21,042 bases of DNA, from positions 1-21,042 of the forward strand of contig QMUK01000010.1 of NCBI GenBank assembly GCA_003660555.1. The letters are read 5' to 3'. This DNA comes from Thermococci archaeon (lineage in GTDB: Archaea > Hadarchaeota > B88-G9). A program made the translations under genes and the position numbers. Numbering within the stretch: the stretch's first letter is position 1; each line of letters opens with the position of its first letter. The notes below the pieces were generated by a model. That model ran no database searches. It worked only from the letters and a program-made list of their open reading frames with translations, and had not been told where the DNA came from. Positions 1 to 10,928 of this stretch are shown here, piece by piece.

Positions 1-894
1 AGTGAAAGGACTTCTCCTTATCACATCTCTGTACCATCCTTCCGACTTTATCCACAGGAATGGGTCCTCTAGACCCTCTATGGAGACGTATATTGGATCT
101 ATTTCCATTTCCTCTATTACGTATTCTACTGGACTGGGGCCTTTCCTAATCTCAACTCTGAACTTGAACTTCTTTTCCTCCGGGAAGACACCGTCTTCGT
201 TTCTCTTAAGTCTATTTGACGTCTGGTCATATGGTTCGTCTGAGTCGTCTGGATTGGCGTATATGTAGAACCCCCATGGATCTATTTGTAGAATGCCTAT
301 TTTCCCTTGGGCTATTGGATTGGTATCTGGATCGATCTCCGAGTTCGGATCGACTGCCTGCTCACACTTTACTGTTATCTCCATTCCCGTTTTCTCCTCG
401 AAGTCCTCAGTTATTCTCTCTAGGATTTCCCTAGTGACCTCTTTCCTCAACCCCGGTATTTCCACTACGGAGTAAGTTCCGTTCTCCTCGTTGTATAGGT
501 AGAAGGATCCCCCCTCCAACATGAACTCAACTGACTTCCATTTCTCGTTGCTTTCCCCCTTGAAGAACAGTCTGTGGTCTGGATAAGACGAAGGAGGACC
601 TATTAAGTATTGAGATGCACTCGGACTGTTGTTCCAGAATTCATCCGGATTCTCTTGGTAGTCCGTCAATATTTTCAAAGTCAGGGAGGCGTACCATCTC
701 CCAGTTATTTGGAAGGCATCCACTATGGAGTTCCTAATGTCTTCCCCCTTTACTCCGATTTTAGTTAGCTCCATCGATATAGCAGATCCTTTGGCCTCGT
801 ATTCGTATACGTGTATGAGAGAAGCCGTGAGTACTAGGGCTGGTATTACTAAGAGGAAGACGAGGCCACTATATACCATTCCACTGGAGTTCAA
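1..894 (-). CDS. Surface protein with N-terminal pilin-like anchor (3' end beyond window)
   Basis: Open frame of 298 codons with no stop down to position 1, so the C-terminus lies outside the window. I take TTG at 894 as the start because GGAGG lies about 10 nt upstream and the preceding gene stops 4 nt away; ATG at 879 is the alternative. The N-terminus is MNSSGMVYSGLVFLL followed by a hydrophobic stretch to about residue 28 and then charged sequence (HVYEYE). This is the topology of a type IV pilin-like N-terminal helix, but without the Q+1/E+5 of a class III signal. The rest is hydrophilic and Asp/Asn rich, with one clear sequon (NGT), a second NNS followed by Pro, and Asp-rich loops (DPNSEIDPDTNP). 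It is the last visible gene of the seven-gene operon. No specific family recognised; a minor pilin or pilus-associated surface protein is inferred from position and topology. Confidence 0.75.
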   Translation of the reverse strand, partial: MNSSGMVYSGLVFLLVIPALVLTASLIHVYEYEAKGSAISMELTKIGVKGEDIRNSIVDAFQITGRWYASLTLKILTDYQENPDEFWNNSPSASQYLIGPPSSYPDHRLFFKGESNEKWKSVEFMLEGGSFYLYNEENGTYSVVEIPGLRKEVTREILERITEDFEEKTGMEITVKCEQAVDPNSEIDPDTNPIAQGKIGILQIDPWGFYIYANPDDSDEPYDQTSNRLKRNEDGVFPEEKKFKFRVEIRKGPSPVEYVIEEMEIDPIYVSIEGLEDPFLWIKSEGWYRDVIRRSPFT

Positions 895-898
895 TTTC

Positions 899-3223
899 TC
901 ACATCCTCCTCCACAAGTACAAGTAAACAAACCCTGTTTTGGGCTCACTAGACGTGTATGAAGCCTGTTCCATTACTCTCATTATTATAGAGTTGTTTTC
1001 TCTTTCATCTAGGTAGTCTATACAGGCCTGAGCAAACGAGTCCTGATCATCGTAATCTTCCGGTTTAGGAGGCTCTCCATCTAAGTCCGATGGATCAACT
1101 ACTCCTTCACTTATCATCCTGTTGAGGAGGAAGACCACAGCCATCGCTTTCGCCTTGGTGGGAGAGTCGGAGTAGGCCATCGCCCAAACGTTCCTTATGA
1201 ACTCGGGGTAAAGCACCACTACTCTACTCCCGGAATAGACTTCAGCATTTCTGTTCCAATCTCCGGACTCCCACTCCTCATTTGGACCGTAAACGGCAAT
1301 CTTTGCCTCGTAGGTTCCAGGACAGAGCACCCACTCTCCAGACTGAGGGTCATACTCAGTCATTATGTGAGGAGAACTCTCTGTGTCCACATTCTTCAAG
1401 TTTATGAATTGACCTGGGCTCACTCTTTCGTCATAGAAGAGTTTCCAGGAAGAGGAACTAGAATCACAAGCTGATGATATTCTCCTCACCCAAACCTTTG
1501 CTTTTCTGGTGTCGGATCCAACTCCGAAGAAGAAGTAAACTAATTCGGCATCTCTTCCTATTTTGAATTTCCTCTTTTTAACTACTGAGTTACCTCCGGA
1601 TTGGTAGTTTTGGAATTCGAAAGTCTGCCAGTCTATTGGTAAACTGGAATAGCTCACCGATATGTACGAATCTACAATTCCAACCCAGTCCCAGTCCGTG
1701 CTAGGGACGAAGTCCCATATGGTGACTCTCACCTTGTTCTTCCCAGGCCTTATCAGCTCAGTTGGCATGTGATCAGGATCGTTTGGATTTATGTTCTTCG
1801 GATCTACCCTTATGCTCACTACTGTGGGCAAATTACCGTAACCATCTCCTCTGGCGCTGTATGACACTCCTTCCAAATTGAAGGAGTTGAAGACAGTGAC
1901 CCATTCGTCCTTGGAGTAATCGTAGACTTCCACCCTAGCGTTGTCTGTAGCGCCTAATATGTTCAACACAATCACAGCGTCGAATATCTTCACGTTATCT
2001 GGCAGCTCGAATTCCTTCACAACAGTTATTGCAGATCCCCCATCGCCATCTGGCAATCCGGAGTTCTGACTTATCCCGAATGGAATTCCACTCCTGCTGT
2101 TTGGATCAGATGGATATTCAGTTTCCCTATGAGTCGAGGCTAAGTCTCCTATCCATCTGTTCCATCTCACACTATCAGCTGCACTACAGTCTAGTATTTC
2201 ATCGGTGTTGCCATCTCCATCTCTGTCCATGGTATCTTTGTACTTACAACTGGATCCAGCTACAGCAAACCCTTCAGCATCTGGCAATCTTATAATCCTA
2301 TGCACTAGACCTACAGGAACAAGCATAGTGTGATTGTACGTGACTATGAGAGAAAACCAAGGCATGTTGTTGTAATACATATAGTCGTAGTCCCCAGGGT
2401 TTCTGAAATCTAGAAACAACTCATTCCTTCCACTTCTCAAGAGATTTTCTGGTACGTCTTCGAAGTCTATCCACATCATTCTTCCGTAGTATCCTCCTCC
2501 TATCGTGTAAAGGTAAGTCCAATCGCCCCGATTTACTCTACCCCAGTATTGACCGTTTATTTGGACATCTACCTCATATGGGGACCCCAAATTATACCTG
2601 AATTCCCCACATCCAAGTATCATTTTGCTAGACAATATCTCGTCGGAGGGTATGTAAAATCCAATTACCTCTCCAGGCCCCCATTCAGTTGGCCCGTTGT
2701 AGAAGTTACTCAACCAATTGTGGAAGTTCACTGCTGTGGTAGTCACAGTCCTTTCTTGTTCCATGAAAGCTGCTTCTTCTACCTTAAACCAAGCTCTTCC
2801 TACCCATCCAGTACCTTTTTCCGCAGTAGTGACGTGTCTAACAGCTGAAGCGTAGTTTGGAATTCCTGAGAGTAACGATTCCAATTCGGACATACTAGAC
2901 ACAGTGTCAGATGCTACAAGCTCTTTTTCTCCCTCTATTTCTATTACCATGGCATAGCCGAATTCAATAGGGACGTTTCTATCTAGATATTCCTCGATGT
3001 ACTCCCTAGTGGCGCTTTTCCTAGGTTCAAGGGCTATTACCTTCAGGGTGCCATCCTGTTCGAGTTTACTCAGAATGTTCTCCGCTATGTCGTTGGCCTC
3101 CAACTCCATTGGCTCAGATTTCGGCGGAACTGAGACTTGGGCAACTGTGACCACCACTATCATTAACGGTATGAGGGCCAATATGGAATCCGTGGTGAAC
3201 AGGAAACCCCTCTCATCAGCCAA
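899..3223 (-). CDS. Large secreted surface protein with pilin-type signal and beta-sandwich modules
   Basis: About 774 aa. TTG at 3223 is preferred because AGGTGAT lies just upstream; GTG at 3232 (777 aa) has no ribosome site. Residue numbers below are from 3232. The N-terminus has ERG followed by FLFTTDSILALIPLMIVVV, a pilin-like hydrophobic helix with Asp at +6 of the presumed cut after Gly. Residues about 187-305 and 400-530 look like galactose-binding-like sandwiches, each with an L-[LI]-R-x-G-x-N strand signature (264-270 and 493-499). Residues 336-348 form a DxDGDGxxD calcium-type loop. There are two sequons (N300, N746). No enzyme motif was seen. It overlaps the upstream gene by 8 nt and ends 4 nt before the next, so it is cotranscribed. 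The size and domains suggest an adhesive or filament-capping subunit (inference). Confidence 0.85.
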   Translation of the reverse strand: MADERGFLFTTDSILALIPLMIVVVTVAQVSVPPKSEPMELEANDIAENILSKLEQDGTLKVIALEPRKSATREYIEEYLDRNVPIEFGYAMVIEIEGEKELVASDTVSSMSELESLLSGIPNYASAVRHVTTAEKGTGWVGRAWFKVEEAAFMEQERTVTTTAVNFHNWLSNFYNGPTEWGPGEVIGFYIPSDEILSSKMILGCGEFRYNLGSPYEVDVQINGQYWGRVNRGDWTYLYTIGGGYYGRMMWIDFEDVPENLLRSGRNELFLDFRNPGDYDYMYYNNMPWFSLIVTYNHTMLVPVGLVHRIIRLPDAEGFAVAGSSCKYKDTMDRDGDGNTDEILDCSAADSVRWNRWIGDLASTHRETEYPSDPNSRSGIPFGISQNSGLPDGDGGSAITVVKEFELPDNVKIFDAVIVLNILGATDNARVEVYDYSKDEWVTVFNSFNLEGVSYSARGDGYGNLPTVVSIRVDPKNINPNDPDHMPTELIRPGKNKVRVTIWDFVPSTDWDWVGIVDSYISVSYSSLPIDWQTFEFQNYQSGGNSVVKKRKFKIGRDAELVYFFFGVGSDTRKAKVWVRRISSACDSSSSSWKLFYDERVSPGQFINLKNVDTESSPHIMTEYDPQSGEWVLCPGTYEAKIAVYGPNEEWESGDWNRNAEVYSGSRVVVLYPEFIRNVWAMAYSDSPTKAKAMAVVFLLNRMISEGVVDPSDLDGEPPKPEDYDDQDSFAQACIDYLDERENNSIIMRVMEQASYTSSEPKTGFVYLYLWRRM

Positions 3224-4319
3224 TCCTATCACCTATTTTGATCAATAATTCCCCTGGCATATATAAGTTATACCAAATTTCTACCCTCTCTTCTCCTTGC
3301 GACTCCCCCCAGTCATATATGCACTCTAGGGCATCCCCAGTGCAACCTGGTGGTAGTGAGACACCTATGGTTAGTATGGCATTCCTCATAGGTCCTTGGA
3401 GAGATATGTAGTTCCATCCAGGTCTTAGTAAATCCCTTATGTCCACGAAATACTCGAAATTCCCTAGTGGTCTTGGAATATCCTCTCCAATCCAAGTGGA
3501 AGTTATGTGACCATTAACGTTCACGTATCCTGTCGCTACGGGAAATCCACCTGGGCCTGTTTCCATTTCCTCTATGTAAATCCCGGTCCATCCTGGTACT
3601 AAGCCGAAATGCGAGAACAAATACTCGGGTATGAATAGTAAAATTACCACGGGAGCTTTGAAGTCTTCGACGTTCGATACATCTTCTAGTATACCATTGC
3701 AACTTCCTCCGTACTCTAATTCTAGTTTATTGTCCCATTCTGAGGGGGAAGCGCAAGAGAAATCACCATTCATTGGAATAGCATAAACGTAAGTTGAAGA
3801 CACACCATCTATGTGTATTCTCTTTTCCGGGCATATCCATCCTCTCAGGACTTCTATTTGTACAGATCTCCTCTCAGTCAAGATTTCTTTAGACTCGCCG
3901 AAGTCAGATATTTCTAGGCACAGACGATTTCGCCCAGTACAGTAATCTCTAGAGATTACAGTTACGTTATAGTAGTAGTCAAGTTCTCCATCTCTGTTCA
4001 CGTCGAGATACTCCTCTATCTCACTACTTATGAGCGAGAGTTTGGACATATTTATGAAGGTGGGGAATTCCTCTCTGAAGTTCGTGACATTTTCATCCTT
4101 CACAGACCAAATAGATCCTAGGAATCCCGTGTGTGAAACCCTAATTATGCTCTCGGCCATATCAGAAACAATTCTCTGCTTCTCAGAATACTTGGTCCTC
4201 TCAACTAGTTTGTAGCTCGCTTCTTCTATCAAGTTCGAGGAAAGCCCAAGTATGACAGTTATTATTATCAGGGAAAGCATGGCATCTAGCGTGAACACCT
4301 GCCCTCTCTCTCCACTCAT
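3216..4319 (-). CDS. Exported surface protein with class III-like signal peptide
   Basis: 367 aa. ATG at 4319 overlaps the stop of the upstream gene as ATGA, so translation is likely coupled. Residues 4-30 read ERGQVFTLDAMLSLIIITV..., with the RG/Q junction of an archaeal class III signal peptide, but the acidic residue sits at +6 (Asp) instead of Glu at +5. The mature part has a calcium-type loop DVNRDGELD (106-114), sequons at N77, N90 and N118, several Cys that could form disulfides, and near the C-terminus a galactose-binding-like segment: VNVNG at 266-270, then the strand signature LLRPGWN at 297-303. The same signature occurs twice in the next gene. Probably exported, cleaved by a prepilin peptidase and assembled in or on a type IV-like filament. 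No named family recognised. Confidence 0.85.
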   Translation of the reverse strand: MSGERGQVFTLDAMLSLIIITVILGLSSNLIEEASYKLVERTKYSEKQRIVSDMAESIIRVSHTGFLGSIWSVKDENVTNFREEFPTFINMSKLSLISSEIEEYLDVNRDGELDYYYNVTVISRDYCTGRNRLCLEISDFGESKEILTERRSVQIEVLRGWICPEKRIHIDGVSSTYVYAIPMNGDFSCASPSEWDNKLELEYGGSCNGILEDVSNVEDFKAPVVILLFIPEYLFSHFGLVPGWTGIYIEEMETGPGGFPVATGYVNVNGHITSTWIGEDIPRPLGNFEYFVDIRDLLRPGWNYISLQGPMRNAILTIGVSLPPGCTGDALECIYDWGESQGEERVEIWYNLYMPGELLIKIGDRIG

Positions 4320-4744
4320 GGAGGCAACACCTCCAATTCTATATCATTCTTTCTCAGCGCGTAATACCTGCACACCATCATATCACCTTGTCTCTCACAC
4401 CCAATCCTAGACAAACTGTCTAGTGCCTCCTCCTTTATCAGATCCTCTGCATCCGTTATGTCGAGCTCTCCCTTGAAGTAAAGCGTTATGGTTATCTCTT
4501 CTTTATCACCGAATTGTCTCAAACTGTACTCCAAGTGGTGAAATCTTCCGTTACCTCGCACCTCTCCGCTTAGCGTGAGTTCGTTCATTTCGGAAATACA
4601 AGACTCCCTAATGGAGACCAATATGTCGTTGAGCTCGCTTTCCCTCATGTACGATGGAATGAACCAGCTGAGGGTAGTTAGCACGATTGCAACTATTATC
4701 ACTCCCTCAACTGAGGCTTGCCCTCTAATTGACATGTACATCAT
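4316..4744 (-). CDS. Small class III signal peptide (pilin-like) protein
   Basis: 142 aa from ATG at 4744. ATG codons at 4741 and 4735 are also possible; 4735 gives the compact N-terminus MSIRGQASVEG. The motif IRG/QASVEG followed by about 20 hydrophobic residues is a textbook archaeal class III signal (Q+1, S+3, E+5), cut between Gly and Gln by EppA/FlaK-type peptidases. Behind the helix comes a short globular domain with three Cys (around 49, 116 and 124), two of which could form a disulfide. No N-x-S/T sequon is present. The 5' end overlaps the upstream gene by about 20 nt and the 3' end overlaps the next by 4 nt. Likely a minor or major pilin subunit; which one cannot be told from sequence alone. 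Confidence 0.87.
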   Translation of the reverse strand: MMYMSIRGQASVEGVIIVAIVLTTLSWFIPSYMRESELNDILVSIRESCISEMNELTLSGEVRGNGRFHHLEYSLRQFGDKEEITITLYFKGELDITDAEDLIKEEALDSLSRIGCERQGDMMVCRYYALRKNDIELEVLPP

Positions 4745-5315
4745 CTCGGTTCGTTGTTATTCTCACACCAACTCTCTTCTTTCCATTTATCTCATCTTGG
4801 GAAGTGACAAATGATATGGCTATGTTCTCCTCAAGCCCATCTGAATTCGGGTCGTTTCTTGGATCGACCGAATTGTCTACTTCGACGTACTCTGCTAGGA
4901 TAGGAGCCTTCAGAAACTTATACCAATTCGGATTACTACAATTCGGCCGACAAACCTTCACTACTACGCTCATTGAGTCTGAGGACCCATCTCCATCTAT
5001 ATCCAAGTTTATCACTCCGGCTTGATCATATTTGCCAACTATGAAGACTTCGTACTGTGTGTTCCTGTGTATGTTCAGTTGAGAATAAGTGCCGTACTTG
5101 TCGGGCAATTCTAAGTATACTTTAGATCCCTCTCCAGATGACACAGTCCTGTCTATTGCTCTCGCTATGTATTCTGCAATCCCTTTTCCTTCTGATACGG
5201 CAGATAGCTCATTAGCACTCTCAAATCTCTCATTCGCTAGATTGACAATCATAGCTATTCCGATTAGAACTACGGCTAAGGCTACTAATACATCTAGGGA
5301 GAGGAAACCCCTCAT
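4725..5315 (-). CDS. Pilin-like exported protein with calcium-type loop
   Basis: 196 aa. A longer frame from TTG at 5372 is open, but ATG at 5315 is the better start: AGGTGA lies upstream at good spacing, it forms an ATGA overlap with the preceding stop, and it puts the signal at the N-terminus. MRGFLSLDVLVALAVVLIGIA is a pilin-type helix with Ser+3 and Asp+5 after the presumed RG/F cut; the usual Gln+1 is replaced by Phe. The mature part holds DIDGDGSSD (105-113), a calcium-binding type loop, a second Asp-rich stretch DPNSDG (155-160), a CxxxC pair (122/126) and a sequon at N125. It is the third gene of the surface operon. Probable minor pilin; family not recognised. Confidence 0.85.
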   Translation of the reverse strand: MRGFLSLDVLVALAVVLIGIAMIVNLANERFESANELSAVSEGKGIAEYIARAIDRTVSSGEGSKVYLELPDKYGTYSQLNIHRNTQYEVFIVGKYDQAGVINLDIDGDGSSDSMSVVVKVCRPNCSNPNWYKFLKAPILAEYVEVDNSVDPRNDPNSDGLEENIAISFVTSQDEINGKKRVGVRITTNRDDVHVN

Positions 5316-5779
5316 ACGTCCCTCACCTTTTCCCACGTTATGGATATCTCTCCCAAGTTTCCTGAACCACAATCTCCTGGGATGTACTCAACTGTCACTA
5401 GGTACACTCCAGGCGAGATCTGCCCAAGTCCAGACAGGGTAGGACAATCACTAGGAAGTATTGTCTCTATGGTTATCTCGTTTCCTTCGAAAGCTATTTT
5501 CATTTCTCTCTTTAAGTCATTGTCCGAATCTGTTTGAGATATGCTTATTTGACACGGTATCTTTACCAAGGCACCTCTCTTATTGTTTGGACCAGAGGCG
5601 AATACGTGATCTATCAGGGATACTATCTGCTGCCCACTAACTCTCACCTCTGAAATTAGATTGAGTTCTTCTGACTTCTCTTTGGACTGTGTGAAGAGTG
5701 GCACAGTTACTGCTGAGAGCACTGCAAGTATAGTGGCCACTATCAGGAGTAATTCGACGGATGATTGCCCCCTAGTCAC
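5312..5779 (-). CDS. Class III signal peptide pilin-like protein
   Basis: 155 aa from GTG at 5779, chosen because the strong site GAGGTGAT ends about 6 nt upstream. TTG codons at 5785 and 5782 are in frame but lie on top of or too near that site. TRG/QSSVELLLIVATILAVLSAVTV is a canonical class III signal (Q+1, S+3, E+5) plus hydrophobic helix. The remaining ~120 residues predict a small beta-rich domain with few Cys and no sequon. The start overlaps the upstream gene by 8 nt and the stop overlaps the next start as ATGA. A structural pilin subunit of an archaeal type IV-like pilus is the most likely role. Confidence 0.88.
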   Translation of the reverse strand: MTRGQSSVELLLIVATILAVLSAVTVPLFTQSKEKSEELNLISEVRVSGQQIVSLIDHVFASGPNNKRGALVKIPCQISISQTDSDNDLKREMKIAFEGNEITIETILPSDCPTLSGLGQISPGVYLVTVEYIPGDCGSGNLGEISITWEKVRDV

Positions 5780-6272
5780 CAACAATCACCTCTACTTTCT
5801 TAGAGGACTCACACACGTTAACAGATATTGACGTGCTATTACCAACTCTCCTAATGGTCAATTCCCAAATTCCCTCTCCCATGGAGAAACTGTCCATTGA
5901 ATATTCTCTACTCGAGAGGATAGAAGAAGTCATCCAACCAACGGGATTTCCATTCCTGGTTACAGTACAGTTTAATGTGAGCAGATATCCATGGGAGAGT
6001 TCTTGGCTTCTCATGGACAAATTCAGACTCACTCCCTTTCTCACATGGAGTGAGTAGGTCTTACTCTCACCAACCCTCCCGTTTATCGCCACGTCCAGAC
6101 CATTCCTTAGATATTCTAGTACAGCCCTCCCATGGGAAAGTGCCTCTACGTTCTTTACTTTCGCCTCGCTGTTTTGAAGAATTGGTATAGACACGCCTGC
6201 TATTACCGTGAGTAAAGCTGCTAAGGCTATTATGTATTCCACAGAGGATTGCCCCCTCCTATGCAAATTCAC
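5772..6272 (-). CDS. Class III signal peptide pilin, first gene of surface operon
   Basis: 166 aa from GTG at 6272; TTG at 6266 is also possible. RRG/QSSVEYIIALAALLTVIAGVS carries the full archaeal class III consensus including Tyr+6. Behind it is a ~130-residue domain with sequons NLS, NCT and NST and two Cys. A TATA box centred near 6300 lies about 27 bp upstream of the GTG, so the mRNA is probably leaderless or nearly so, and this gene opens the seven-gene transcription unit. Its canonical signal and first position fit a major pilin, but abundance cannot be read from sequence. Its three sequons and the neighbouring aglB suggest that it is N-glycosylated. Confidence 0.9.
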   Translation of the reverse strand: MNLHRRGQSSVEYIIALAALLTVIAGVSIPILQNSEAKVKNVEALSHGRAVLEYLRNGLDVAINGRVGESKTYSLHVRKGVSLNLSMRSQELSHGYLLTLNCTVTRNGNPVGWMTSSILSSREYSMDSFSMGEGIWELTIRRVGNSTSISVNVCESSKKVEVIVGD

Positions 6273-6294
6273 ACCATGGAAAATTAGTCCACAC

Positions 6295-6312
6295 TATTTA
6301 ATAAGGTTTGGG
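6295..6312 (-). promoter_or_regulatory. TATA box / BRE of the surface operon
   Basis: On the minus strand CAAACC is followed by TTATTAAATA. This is an archaeal BRE-TATA pair centred about 27 bp before the GTG at 6272. No ribosome site of its own lies between the expected start of transcription and the GTG. Confidence 0.6.
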
Positions 6313-6385: not shown

Positions 6386-6396
6386 AACCTATAATT
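6386..6396 (+). promoter_or_regulatory. Putative TATA box upstream of aglH
   Basis: AACCTATAATT lies about 26 bp before the GTGGGGGA ribosome site of aglH, giving a short leader. Position and composition fit an archaeal TATA box; no other support. Confidence 0.35.
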
Positions 6397-6427
6397 GGTC
6401 AATAAACCCCTCAGTGGGGGAACGCGA

Positions 6428-7363
6428 TTGAATCCACTTTACCTCATGATCTCGTTCTCATCATCCCTATTGCTGACTATGATCCTGACAAGGATTTGGA
6501 TAAAAAAAGTGAGAAACAAATACAAAGGAATAGACGTTCATAAAGAAGATAAGCCAGAAGTAGCAGAAATGGGTGGAATACCACTCCTGATTGGATTTTT
6601 GGCTCCTCTAATCTTTTTCAGCGATGCACAACTCATAGCGCTCACAGTGTTTTTGGTCTCGTTGGTGGGCATCGTAGACGACATCTCAGGCCTATCGCAT
6701 TCTGAGAAGATAGTACTTCCAATTCTAGCCTCAATACCATACTCGGTCTTTGGGGATTTGAGTCCGTGGATAGACTTCCCATTCCTACTTCCTGTTTACT
6801 TCGGAGTGTTTTACAAATTACTATTAGTTCCACTCTGGATTTCCGCTTCAGCCAATTCCATAAACGTCATGGCAGGATTCAATGGACTTGAGGCAGGAAT
6901 GTGTTTAATAGCATCTTTTTTCCTCATGCCCATAGCTATAGACACCGGGAATTTGACATCAGCACTAGTATTGTCTTCCTTCATGGGATCCTTGGTGGCC
7001 TTCCTCTACTACAACAGGTATCCCTCTAGGGTATTCCCAGGAGACGTCGGGACCTTCGGAATGGGTGCCACAATAGCTTTACTCTCAATAGAAATGAAAG
7101 TGGAATTCATAGCTTTCCTTTTACTTCTACCCCATTTTACCGATTTCTTCATGAAGTCTACTTCTCTCTTCAAAGGCAGGGAGAGACATGGACACGTAAT
7201 CCTAAAGGGGAAGTACTTAGTGCCTCCAAAGCATCTATCGATACTCCACGTACCATTGAGAATAACACCGATGACCGAGAGGTCCCTGGTTCTGCTAATG
7301 TACTCCGTAGAGGTGGAAATGGGAATACTAGCTCTGTTTACCTACTATTTCCTCTTTTCTTAG
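6428..7363 (+). CDS. aglH: Dolichyl-phosphate GlcNAc-1-phosphotransferase-type enzyme (GT4 family)
   Basis: 311 aa, multi-spanning membrane protein of the MraY/GPT family, which transfers a sugar-1-phosphate from a UDP-sugar to dolichyl phosphate on the cytoplasmic face: the first step of the N-glycan lipid carrier pathway. TTG at 6428 is chosen because GTGGGGGA lies 7 nt upstream; an upstream TTG at 6395 is open but lacks a ribosome site. Motifs seen: PEVAEMGGIP (43-52), IVDD (82-85), NVMAGFNGLEAG (146-157), FPGDVGT (203-209) and RERHGH (251-256), which are the conserved loops of the archaeal and eukaryotic GPT branch. Length is normal. Its 3' end overlaps convergent aglB by 36 nt. The sugar (GlcNAc or another HexNAc) is not determined by sequence. 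Confidence 0.92.
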   Translation: MNPLYLMISFSSSLLLTMILTRIWIKKVRNKYKGIDVHKEDKPEVAEMGGIPLLIGFLAPLIFFSDAQLIALTVFLVSLVGIVDDISGLSHSEKIVLPILASIPYSVFGDLSPWIDFPFLLPVYFGVFYKLLLVPLWISASANSINVMAGFNGLEAGMCLIASFFLMPIAIDTGNLTSALVLSSFMGSLVAFLYYNRYPSRVFPGDVGTFGMGATIALLSIEMKVEFIAFLLLLPHFTDFFMKSTSLFKGRERHGHVILKGKYLVPPKHLSILHVPLRITPMTERSLVLLMYSVEVEMGILALFTYYFLFS

Positions 7364-9211
7364 TCTGTAGAGGAGAACTCTTCCCTTCGAGTTACAAAAT
7401 TCCCATTCACCAAAGCTTCTCACCAATTCCAAGTACTCTGGATGAAATACTTCTGGACAAATCATTTTGATGTACAATAAGTCCTTTCCACTTTCCTTTA
7501 CGTTGAATTCTTCTCCTGTTATCTCGAAATACCTATAGAAGTCTACCCCTCCGACACTAGCTATTGGAGGACCCTTCCTGAGCTCCCAATATCTGTCTAT
7601 TAAGACGTAATCCGCCTCGTATTTTAAGAAGACCTCAATTCCTTCCTTTTCTGGACTGAACAGAGCCCTAGATATCTCTGCATTCCTCGAAGGCTTTAGG
7701 TTACTCGGGTCTATTACAGTTCTCCTATTAGCCAAAGTTTGGATCCAGTAGCCATAATCCCACCAAGCCAATATGACGGAATCCTCTGGCGTATTCCTCT
7801 TTATCCAATTCAAGGCCTCTATCCACTCTGAAGTTATTTCCGGAGTTCTGGTGTAGGATATCTGAAGGGCTATTATCGACGGGGGTAAGGTGAAACTGAC
7901 TAGCAGGAGGACTAAGATTATGTATCTTGCCATCTTCTCTTTCTTTATCCTCGATTTGTCCCCCTCCTTTACTCTAGATAAGTTGACTAATAGTTTCTCT
8001 AAGGCTATTGAGGAAACTACTGCAGCTGATGGAGCTAGAAGGAAGGATATCCTAGCTGTAGAAGCAGCTGAGTAAATGGTCAGGAGGAACCAAGTCAGAA
8101 GGAATAAGTCCTCACCACGTCTTCTTTTCATGAGCAGGAAAACACCCAGGGGGAAGAGGAAGCATATGGAAAAAGTCCTGACGTACCACTCTCTATAGGT
8201 TATTGGTTGATGTTCAGCAATAGACGAGAATAACGGAGATTCCTCTCTGGCCAGAGGGTTTATCATGTAATAGAATTTGCTTAGGTTCACGCCTATGAGC
8301 AACGAAACCAGACCAGCAGCGAATATCGAAACTAAGAAGAACAATCTGGAGTATTCCTTCCCATACTTCTTTCCTATTAAGTAAGCTAAAATCGATAGAT
8401 AGGAAATGAAAATAGAGGAGAACACCAATGGATCCGTGTAAACGTATCTCCACTTCTGAGAGGTTAGGGAGATCACTAGAGCTATAGTGAGGGAGGGAGT
8501 GACGGAGTAAACTCCTCTTTTATCTAATTTCTTCAGCAGTACCATCAGAGATAGAAAAGCAGAGAATATAAGGAACACAGATCTGAAAGCACCCCAAGTA
8601 AGAGCCATTCCTCCTAAGAATATGCCAGACAGTATGGAATACTTAATTGAACAATTCTTGTAGCTCTTAATCAATAAGTATACTGAAACAAGCATTAAGA
8701 GTCCGCCTAGACTCTCTTTGTCGTTGAATCCAGCAAGAGTCCTTATTAGATGCGGTGGAGATACTGCTAGAAAGAAAGAGGACAACAACCCAACTTCTCT
8801 ACTCCATATTTCCTTTCCTATTGAATACATCGGGAAAACGCAGAGAGCTCCTAGAATAGAAGGAAACAATATGAAGAATTCCTTCAGAGTGAAACCGAGC
8901 TTGGATCCTACTAAGAGGTAGGAGTAAGCTATCGTGTAGTGTAATAGTGGGGGAGAAGTGTAAGGAACTATCCTACCCTCTGGATGATAGGAGAGAACAT
9001 CTATTTCTGGCCTGTGCCCATTTCTCACGATTTCTTCGACCATTCTGAAGTGAAAATATGGATCCATCCCTATTATTTCCCCATAGTGCCTAGGTATCTG
9101 CCTGAGGTAGAACGCTAGACAGAATACCAGGAAGAGAAGTAGGACATATCCCAGTTTTCTCTTTTCTTCTTTTTCTTTTTTTCTTTTGTCACCACTTCCT
9201 TCCCTATTCAA
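7328..9211 (-). CDS. aglB: Oligosaccharyltransferase AglB (STT3 family), short form
   Basis: 627 aa, GT66 membrane enzyme that moves the lipid-linked glycan to Asn of N-x-S/T sequons outside the cell. TTG at 9211 follows GGTGAT and sits 1 nt after the fttA stop; an ATG at 9241 would overlap fttA by 29 nt. Seen from 9211: a Lys-rich cytoplasmic start (1-19), a first helix, the metal-site loop GMDPYFHFR (D50), FNDKES (162-167), the external loop with SIAEHQP (E333) that contacts the sequon, and the signature WWDYG (483-487) opening the soluble C-terminal part. The C-terminal domain is only about 145 residues after WWDYG, so this is the compact type, as in short Archaeoglobus AglB proteins. The Lys-rich start shows up as a pyrimidine run near 9160-9190 on the plus strand. 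Confidence 0.95.
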   Translation of the reverse strand: MNREGSGDKRKKEKEEKRKLGYVLLLFLVFCLAFYLRQIPRHYGEIIGMDPYFHFRMVEEIVRNGHRPEIDVLSYHPEGRIVPYTSPPLLHYTIAYSYLLVGSKLGFTLKEFFILFPSILGALCVFPMYSIGKEIWSREVGLLSSFFLAVSPPHLIRTLAGFNDKESLGGLLMLVSVYLLIKSYKNCSIKYSILSGIFLGGMALTWGAFRSVFLIFSAFLSLMVLLKKLDKRGVYSVTPSLTIALVISLTSQKWRYVYTDPLVFSSIFISYLSILAYLIGKKYGKEYSRLFFLVSIFAAGLVSLLIGVNLSKFYYMINPLAREESPLFSSIAEHQPITYREWYVRTFSICFLFPLGVFLLMKRRRGEDLFLLTWFLLTIYSAASTARISFLLAPSAAVVSSIALEKLLVNLSRVKEGDKSRIKKEKMARYIILVLLLVSFTLPPSIIALQISYTRTPEITSEWIEALNWIKRNTPEDSVILAWWDYGYWIQTLANRRTVIDPSNLKPSRNAEISRALFSPEKEGIEVFLKYEADYVLIDRYWELRKGPPIASVGGVDFYRYFEITGEEFNVKESGKDLLYIKMICPEVFHPEYLELVRSFGEWEFCNSKGRVLLYRLRKEEIVGKQS

Positions 9212-9212
9212 C

Positions 9213-10928
9213 TTAATCACCCAATACGTATGCATCCCCATTCCTTGGGGCTACGGCACTTAATCCAATCTTGTTTCTTATCTCAGATGCGAATTTCTCA
9301 CAGTGTCCTCTCTCTCCATGGACTGTAAATACCTTTGGTTTTCCACAGTTCTTCAAATACTCAAATAGTTCTGGCCTGTCGACGTGGGCTGAAAGAGTCA
9401 CCTCTACAACTTCCGCCTTGAGTTCAATGTTCTCATTGTCTACTCTTATTTTGCGCTCTCCATCGAGTATCTTTCTTCCTAGGGTACCTTCAGCTTGGTA
9501 ACCGGTTATTATGATCGAATTTCTTTCGTCACCACCCAGTTCCTTGAGATACCTAATAACTGGCCCTCCAGATAGCATTCCAGAGGTAGTGACTATTATT
9601 CCTCTCTCTGAGATTGCTTCCTCTCTGTGTTTTTCTCTCCAGATCCAACTTATGTTTTCAGTCCTGAGATCCCTAGCTAAGAACTCGGGATGGGACTGAA
9701 TTATCTTAGTGGCTTCCCTTATCATCCCATCCACGAAGATGGGTATGTCCACTCTGTAATCCTGCAAGATCAGGAGAATTTCTTGTCCTCTACCTACACC
9801 AAAACTGGGCACTATGGAGGATCCACCTCTCCTATAGGTTTCTAGTACAGCCTTTATTAACTTCTTCTCTTCCTTTTTCCTAGAAGGATGTGTTTCCATG
9901 GAATATGTACTCTCTATTGCTATGAAGTCCAACTCTGGATAACTTCGGTCAGCCCCCTCTAGCAACTTACTTCTCTTTGTGTTTATGTCTCCAGTGAACA
10001 GGAATCTCTTTTCCTTACCATTGGATTTGATCTTGAGTAGCACTGAGGAGCTACCAGGTATGTGTCCAGCATCAAATAACTCCACGCTTACATCTGGGGC
10101 AACGTCTATTTCCTCCCTGTACTCGATGGGTATGCTTTTCCTTATGGCCCGATCTATTTCTCTTTTCTCGAACCCAATTTTGTCTCTACCTATTTTATAC
10201 AGATCTAGGGCCAGAAGTCTCATTAGGGATATAGTGGCCTCAGTGGCGTAAATGGGTCCATCGTATCCCATGGAGTAGAGACGAAATACTCCACCAGCGT
10301 GATCTAGATGGGCGTGGGTGAGAATCAGAGCATCTATTTCTTCTAACTTCAATTCCGGGAGGTGATGAGGATACTTGTAATCAGAGGGAGAAATACCATA
10401 GTCCACCAATACACTACTTTCCTCTGTTTGAACTAGAGAGGAACTCCTTCCGACTTCTCTGCACCCACCTAGGAAACTGACTCTCGGCAACATGTCATAT
10501 CTCTTCGTCGAAGTTCTAATTCTCCTCCCAATCCTGAGCAAAAACGAGTACCTACCATTTTGCTCGTGTATTTCACTCCTAACCTTCCGGACTATTCCAG
10601 AATATGATGGATACTTGAATATGGGTCTCCATCCAGTCTTCAAGAAGAACTCCTCTCCCAAGAATTCCTTCTTGGACTCTATTATCACAGAACCAAGGGA
10701 TTCATCGAAGTACACTCTCACACTAAGCCCTCTCTTCTCGGCCTCTCTTCTTATTACTTCTAAGACCTCTTCTTCTCCCATTCTTGAACTACACTTAACG
10801 AATGAGAACTTCTCGATCCCATACCTTTCCTTAACTTTTTCCTTTAGGTCATTGCTTAAATCGCTCGGAGAGTCCAGTACTACTACTTTCCAAGGTCCAA
10901 GAAATTCGAGCATGATGACTCCACTCAT
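9213..10928 (-). CDS. Archaeal beta-CASP nuclease / termination factor FttA (aCPSF1) with reduced KH region
   Basis: 571 aa, metallo-beta-lactamase/beta-CASP protein of the CPSF73-like family. In archaea FttA cleaves nascent RNA and terminates transcription. Catalytic elements are complete: D176 (LVDYG), HAHLDH (205-210), AGH (H288), TGD (D314), then CASP motif A E339, motif B SAH (513-515) and motif C VHGE (536-539). REVGRSSSLVQT (157-168) is typical of this branch. Family members are usually near 630-650 aa with two KH domains at the N-terminus. Here the N-terminal part is about 145 aa and the GxxG (IGKGG-type) loop expected before the TGW segment (98-100) is missing. ATG at 10928 overlaps the upstream stop as ATGA; ATG at 10913 with GGAG in front is an alternative. 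Confidence 0.9.
   Translation of the reverse strand: MSGVIMLEFLGPWKVVVLDSPSDLSNDLKEKVKERYGIEKFSFVKCSSRMGEEEVLEVIRREAEKRGLSVRVYFDESLGSVIIESKKEFLGEEFFLKTGWRPIFKYPSYSGIVRKVRSEIHEQNGRYSFLLRIGRRIRTSTKRYDMLPRVSFLGGCREVGRSSSLVQTEESSVLVDYGISPSDYKYPHHLPELKLEEIDALILTHAHLDHAGGVFRLYSMGYDGPIYATEATISLMRLLALDLYKIGRDKIGFEKREIDRAIRKSIPIEYREEIDVAPDVSVELFDAGHIPGSSSVLLKIKSNGKEKRFLFTGDINTKRSKLLEGADRSYPELDFIAIESTYSMETHPSRKKEEKKLIKAVLETYRRGGSSIVPSFGVGRGQEILLILQDYRVDIPIFVDGMIREATKIIQSHPEFLARDLRTENISWIWREKHREEAISERGIIVTTSGMLSGGPVIRYLKELGGDERNSIIITGYQAEGTLGRKILDGERKIRVDNENIELKAEVVEVTLSAHVDRPELFEYLKNCGKPKVFTVHGERGHCEKFASEIRNKIGLSAVAPRNGDAYVLGD

Follow-up and report, generated by a model that had tools for sequence, protein, structure and literature searches.

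A seven-gene operon with prepilin-type N termini

The window, the whole stretch of 21,042 bases that was analysed, corresponds to an entire contig, C10, from a genome assembly (G000) of 1.295 Mb that is 91% complete and divided over 150 contigs. Reading of the open reading frames and their junctions confirmed the arrangement proposed in an earlier reading of the sequence alone, of seven consecutive minus-strand genes (1-6304) that overlap or touch, with 4-20 bases shared between successive genes or a gap of 4 bases, and a single TATA-like box, TTATTAAATA, for the entire run (Table 1). Gene 7 runs off the left end of the contig, and an overlap search found no other contig that overlaps this end. 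As the window is the whole contig and ends inside gene 7, the lack of further genes on its left side is not informative. The operon is flanked at window positions 6395-9241 by a family 4 glycosyl transferase gene (GlcNAc-phosphotransferase-like) and an AglB/STT3 oligosaccharyltransferase; an STT3-like gene is also located near the pilin module in two of the loci described below (L035 and L073), so a connection with N-glycosylation of the pilins is possible.

Table 1. Features of the operon (window coordinates) and of the assembly-gene contig C89 of the same genome (C89 coordinates).
Feature	Position	Strand	Description
TATA-like box TTATTAAATA	6304-6295	-	~25 bases upstream of the GTG start of gene 1
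Gene 1	5772-6272	-	class III pilin-like, 166 aa, RRG/QSSVEY, GTG start
Gene 2	5312-5782 (or 5785)	-	class III pilin-like, 156 aa, TRG/QSSVEL
Gene 3	4725-5315	-	pilin-like, 196 aa, MRG/FLSLDVLVAL
Gene 4	4316-4744	-	class III pilin-like, 142 aa, IRG/QASVEG
Gene 5	3216-4319	-	exported, 367 aa, pilin N terminus ERG/QVFTLDAML
Gene 6	899-3223	-	exported, 774 aa, pilin N terminus ERG/FLFTTDSIL and large exported body
Gene 7	1-894	-	open at contig end; weak pilin-like N terminus SSG/MVYSGLVFLL
TadC platform protein	C89 3276-4307		above PF00482 cut-off
TadC platform protein	C89 2337-3266		above PF00482 cut-off
Class III pilin	C89 1461-1652		63 aa, above PF04021 cut-off
Class III pilin	C89 1288-1464		58 aa

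The signal of genes 1-6 consists of an RG/Q junction (the four genes 1, 2, 4, and 5, as originally counted) or an RG/F junction (genes 3 and 6), followed at a short distance by an acidic residue and then by a hydrophobic helix. Gene 7, starting MNSSG/MVYSGLVFLLVIPAL, has a similar helix with no basic residue before the glycine. The claim that all seven proteins carry a pilin-type N-terminal helix therefore stands with a clear class III signal for genes 1-6, whereas the junction of gene 7 is non-canonical. A simple motif-plus-hydropathy test for class III signals, applied to window open reading frames of at least 55 aa, flagged 7 of 73; apart from an unrelated membrane channel these were genes 1-6, and the run is therefore not due to chance. 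The Pfam Class_IIIsignal family matched genes 1, 2, and 4, all below cut-off, and apart from this signal genes 1-7 gave only sub-cut-off matches of unrelated kinds in Pfam and NCBIfam. Judged by these sequences, the operon proteins would be cleaved by a class III signal peptidase.

The model of gene 2 (pLDDT 81.7) comprises a long N-terminal helix (6-63) followed by a seven-strand globular β-domain, and thus this protein, the only one of the seven to which the statement applies, is predicted to have the helix and β-domain expected of a type IV pilin. Fold searches with the model, which are weak, gave no significant match, its globular part corresponding to no solved structure, and listed no pilin.

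Assembly genes and conserved gene order

The sequence-only reading had found neither ATPase nor platform genes with the operon. This proved to be an edge effect, the assembly genes seeming to be missing owing to the contig break within gene 7: an ATPase, two TadC proteins (TadC1 and TadC2), and two short class III proteins are found together on another contig of the same genome (C89, 5,641 bases), and the corresponding genes are adjacent to the operon in a relative (locus L043). The C89 ATPase is of the PilB/FlaI/CpaF type (PF00437, E 3.5e-50) and is 65% identical to the ATPases of genomes G006 and G026, and 61-63% identical (about 530-540 bits) to the single ATPase match in each of the Methanobacteriales genomes G286, G131, and G201; for reference, it scores 261 bits against the archaeal GspE 2oap and 217 against FlaI. 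A second ATPase match in the window's genome, on contig C18, is weak and represents a distant relative, so that no protein of the assembly other than that of C89 is a plausible pilus ATPase. By sequence similarity, the C89 protein would belong to the clade 1 type, the sole kind of secretion ATPase in Methanobacteria.

Between TadC2 and the short pilins of C89, on the opposite strand (L007, 1697-2320), lies a gene for a 207-aa protein with a C-terminal helix-turn-helix, a candidate pilus regulator. A further contig of the genome, C121 (L008, 1-1812), encodes a TadC-like protein of at least 603 aa with two PF00482 domains in one frame and no ATPase in view; this protein could come from another system, or the contig from another organism.

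A search of archaeal genomes for the same gene order was successful. In a genome of the same phylum (G026, locus L043), seven pilin-type genes are arranged in the window's order, and the first six junctions (RG/Q, RG/Q, RG/F, RG/Q, RG/Q, and RG/F) are those of the window. Next comes a gene for a DUF2101-type membrane protein, a call based on the Pfam match of the counterpart in L042, and after it a convergent group of two short pilins, TadC, TadC, and the ATPase, the whole lying within a 20-kb stretch. Nearly the same set is found in genome G006 (L042), with the addition of an EppA-like peptidase that matches both PF01478 and PF06819. The Methanobacteriales loci (L035-L039, L048, L070, and L073) contain homologues of genes 2, 6, and 7, several of them also of genes 3 and 5, and in most an EppA-like peptidase and a DUF2101-type protein are located in the same gene run. 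Separation of the two loci is thus normal, as genome G286, assembled in a single contig, has its pilin module at about 363 kb and its ATPase at about 1,558 kb.

For genes 2, 3, 4, 6, and 7, homology persists when the N-terminal helix is removed. Gene 1 has relatives in gene 2 and in the pilin that heads the operons of the related genomes; relatives of gene 2 are found in L035, L048, and L070, those of gene 3 in L043, L046, L042, and L073, and that of gene 4, also after removal of the N terminus, in L046. The mature part of gene 7 has relatives in Methanobacteriales and a positional counterpart in L043.

Several irregular frames were encountered among the genomes compared. In G286 (L073, 6491-7375 and 7376-9379), the gene-5 counterpart is split into two open frames and the gene-6 counterpart breaks near its end into a 667-aa frame and a 38-aa piece in another frame; both are intact in sister species, and the breaks represent sequencing error or decay. 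A pilus-type ATPase match in genome G001 (contig C1, about 26854-32505) falls in three separated pieces within one 2026-aa frame, a pattern suggestive of inteins or other large insertions that preserve the frame. Frames of 1091-1168 aa in three other genomes (G110:C92:7778-10528, G090:C2:229084-231843, and G285:C63:2245-4983) each contain two tandem pilus ATPase copies, a double-ATPase fusion that occurs in two families.

Neither a prepilin peptidase (queries PF01478, PF06819, and the L042 peptidase) nor a DUF2101 gene was found in the window's 91% complete, 150-contig genome, and DUF2341 (PF10102), a large adhesin-like protein common in clade 1 loci, was not matched there, with a positive control in M. 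jannaschii. As counter-evidence these absences are weak, given the state of the assembly and its break at the operon. The relatives suggest that the peptidase and DUF2101 genes may lie just past the left end of contig C10.

The large exported proteins

Gene 6 has full-length relatives in Methanobacteriales; most of its sequence shows homology to proteins in Methanobrevibacter (L047) and a member of Methanobacteriaceae (L048), and residues 6-717 are 37-39% identical to proteins from genomes of one Methanobacteriales genus. Its body (residues 145-774) occurs in 13 of 394 archaeal genomes, the carriers being the window's genome, Methanobacteriales-type families and, in partial form, one other family. 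Among the genomes searched, no other member of the same phylum was found to carry it. An AlphaFold2 model of gene 6 from a three-row alignment had a mean pLDDT of 41.0, too poor for a fold claim or a fold search.

Even with the helix removed, the gene-5 proteins from other archaea group into a single family (E 1e-8 to 1e-23 between groups), and the gene 5 protein of the window falls outside it (best E 0.26); a scan of genome contigs found no relative of gene 5, the body of which has no detectable relatives. Searches of the PDB with the gene 6 body profile and the gene 5 sequence gave nothing relevant. An internal-repeat or sugar-binding jelly-roll organization of genes 5 and 6, considered for a recurring L-x-R-x-G-x-N motif, was rejected, with hhalign probabilities of 0.1-8%.

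Taken together, the phylum-type gene order, the presence of the gene 6 body in Methanobacteriales and one other lineage, and the unmatched body of gene 5 hint at module exchange or fast divergence, within the limits set by incomplete genomes and short alignments. We tentatively suggest, while thinking it rather doubtful, that a conserved pilus chassis carries exchangeable large tip proteins, with archaea swapping exported adhesion modules between phyla. Should the large bodies turn out to act as modules of the tip, this would explain how one conserved pilus serves different binding targets.

Probable minor pilins of a type IV pilus and comparison with known systems

The gene content of the operon, its conserved order, the assembly genes of the same genome, and the pilin-like model of gene 2 lead us to regard it, with high confidence, as encoding the minor pilins of one type IV pilus of the Methanococci/Methanobacteria type ("clade 1" of Makarova), driven by the machine encoded on C89. 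Points against this reading, besides the genes not found in the assembly, are the non-canonical junction of gene 7, the gene 5 body that matches none of its counterparts, and the absence of a contig overlap that would join C10 to C89. Clade 1 systems have two TadC proteins, short major pilins and, in most genomes, at least five minor pilins, and the only secretion ATPase of Methanothermobacteria is of this clade (Makarova, Koonin and Albers 2016, PMC4858521). Several class III minor pilins in one locus are represented here by six of the seven genes, in the order of L043, and the two TadC proteins and short (~60-70 aa) class III major pilins by the genes on C89. The initial proposal of one filament or surface complex gains support, as the unit is conserved in distant archaea, beside pilus assembly genes or sharing a genome with them. 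The small operon members, previously assigned to the shaft, are probably minor pilins instead, since the 58-63-aa class III proteins of C89 match the described major pilins in size and type.

Each operon protein would enter the membrane via its N-terminal helix, and a prepilin peptidase, expected to be of the EppA type, would cleave it behind the glycine. The ATPase/TadC1/TadC2 machine would then extract the cut pilins, with the ~60-aa major pilins from C89 building the shaft and the proteins of genes 1-4 forming an initiating or capping complex. The proteins of genes 5, 6, and probably 7 would co-assemble into the same complex and display their large exported domains either at the filament tip or along its length, where these might serve adhesion or, by analogy with M. 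maripaludis, DNA uptake. That the large members are located at the tip or function in adhesion is reasonable to infer.

The large proteins are also the basis for two other readings. The small genes may be pilins while genes 5-7 encode S-layer-like cell-wall or other surface proteins that share with them only the signal and the transcript; the absence of a usable fold for genes 5 and 6, of any Pfam or PDB match, and of a relationship between the gene 5 body and other gene-5 proteins would agree with this. We consider it unlikely, as genes 5, 6, and 7 co-occur with pilin genes across several archaeal families, and genes 5 and 6 retain the pilin-type junction (RG/Q or RG/F) and the acidic residue close behind it. 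Less probable still is that the type IV machinery builds a non-extended surface complex, such as a short pseudopilus or a bindosome-like substrate-binding assembly, in which the large proteins bind substrate. The Sulfolobus bindosome provides a precedent for large exported proteins that carry class III signals (mentioned in PMC3875500), and the large members account for over half of the coding length of the operon. However, no match to a solute-binding family was obtained with any of the seven proteins, and short class III proteins of the major pilin type adjoin TadC in the same genome, as they do in L042 and L043.

With this assignment, the range of the complex multi-pilin type IV pilus of methanogens comes to include a further archaeal phylum, and uncharacterised large exported proteins are attached to a pilus. 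It also carries a caution: where machinery appears to be missing at a contig edge, other contigs should be inspected first.

The large members had not been recognised as belonging to a described pilus system. That the system is undescribed is not supported, as the same architecture has been reported for M. maripaludis (PMC3875500) and for clade 1 (PMC4858521). In M. maripaludis, the epd operon encodes EppA and minor pilins and is needed for piliation, the genes for the ATPase and for two membrane proteins being located elsewhere (PMC3875500), and many of these pilus genes were struck in a transposon screen for transformation defects (PMC10133366). The likeness to this epd/eppA system is one of architecture, with an operon of multiple minor pilins apart from the ATPase locus, two platform proteins, and short major pilins elsewhere; unlike the window's assembly, in which neither was found, the M. 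maripaludis cluster has eppA and a DUF2341 protein. The Methanobacteriales clade 1 systems differ from the window in an unrelated gene 5 body and in eppA and DUF2101, which were not seen in the window's genome. In Methanothermobacter-like loci, gene 3 follows gene 7 and one pilin gene is reversed, whereas all seven genes of the window run one way in the order of L043. Methanobacteriales nevertheless share with the window an ATPase and a gene 6 protein at the levels of identity given above, the latter over most of its length, as well as two TadC proteins and counterparts of genes 2, 3, 5, and 7 in the same operons. A likeness in concept is found in PilB and PilC of Streptococcus sanguinis (PMC9934059), where a pilin N terminus is joined to a large module, encoded in an operon with small minor pilins, and proposed to be located at the tip.
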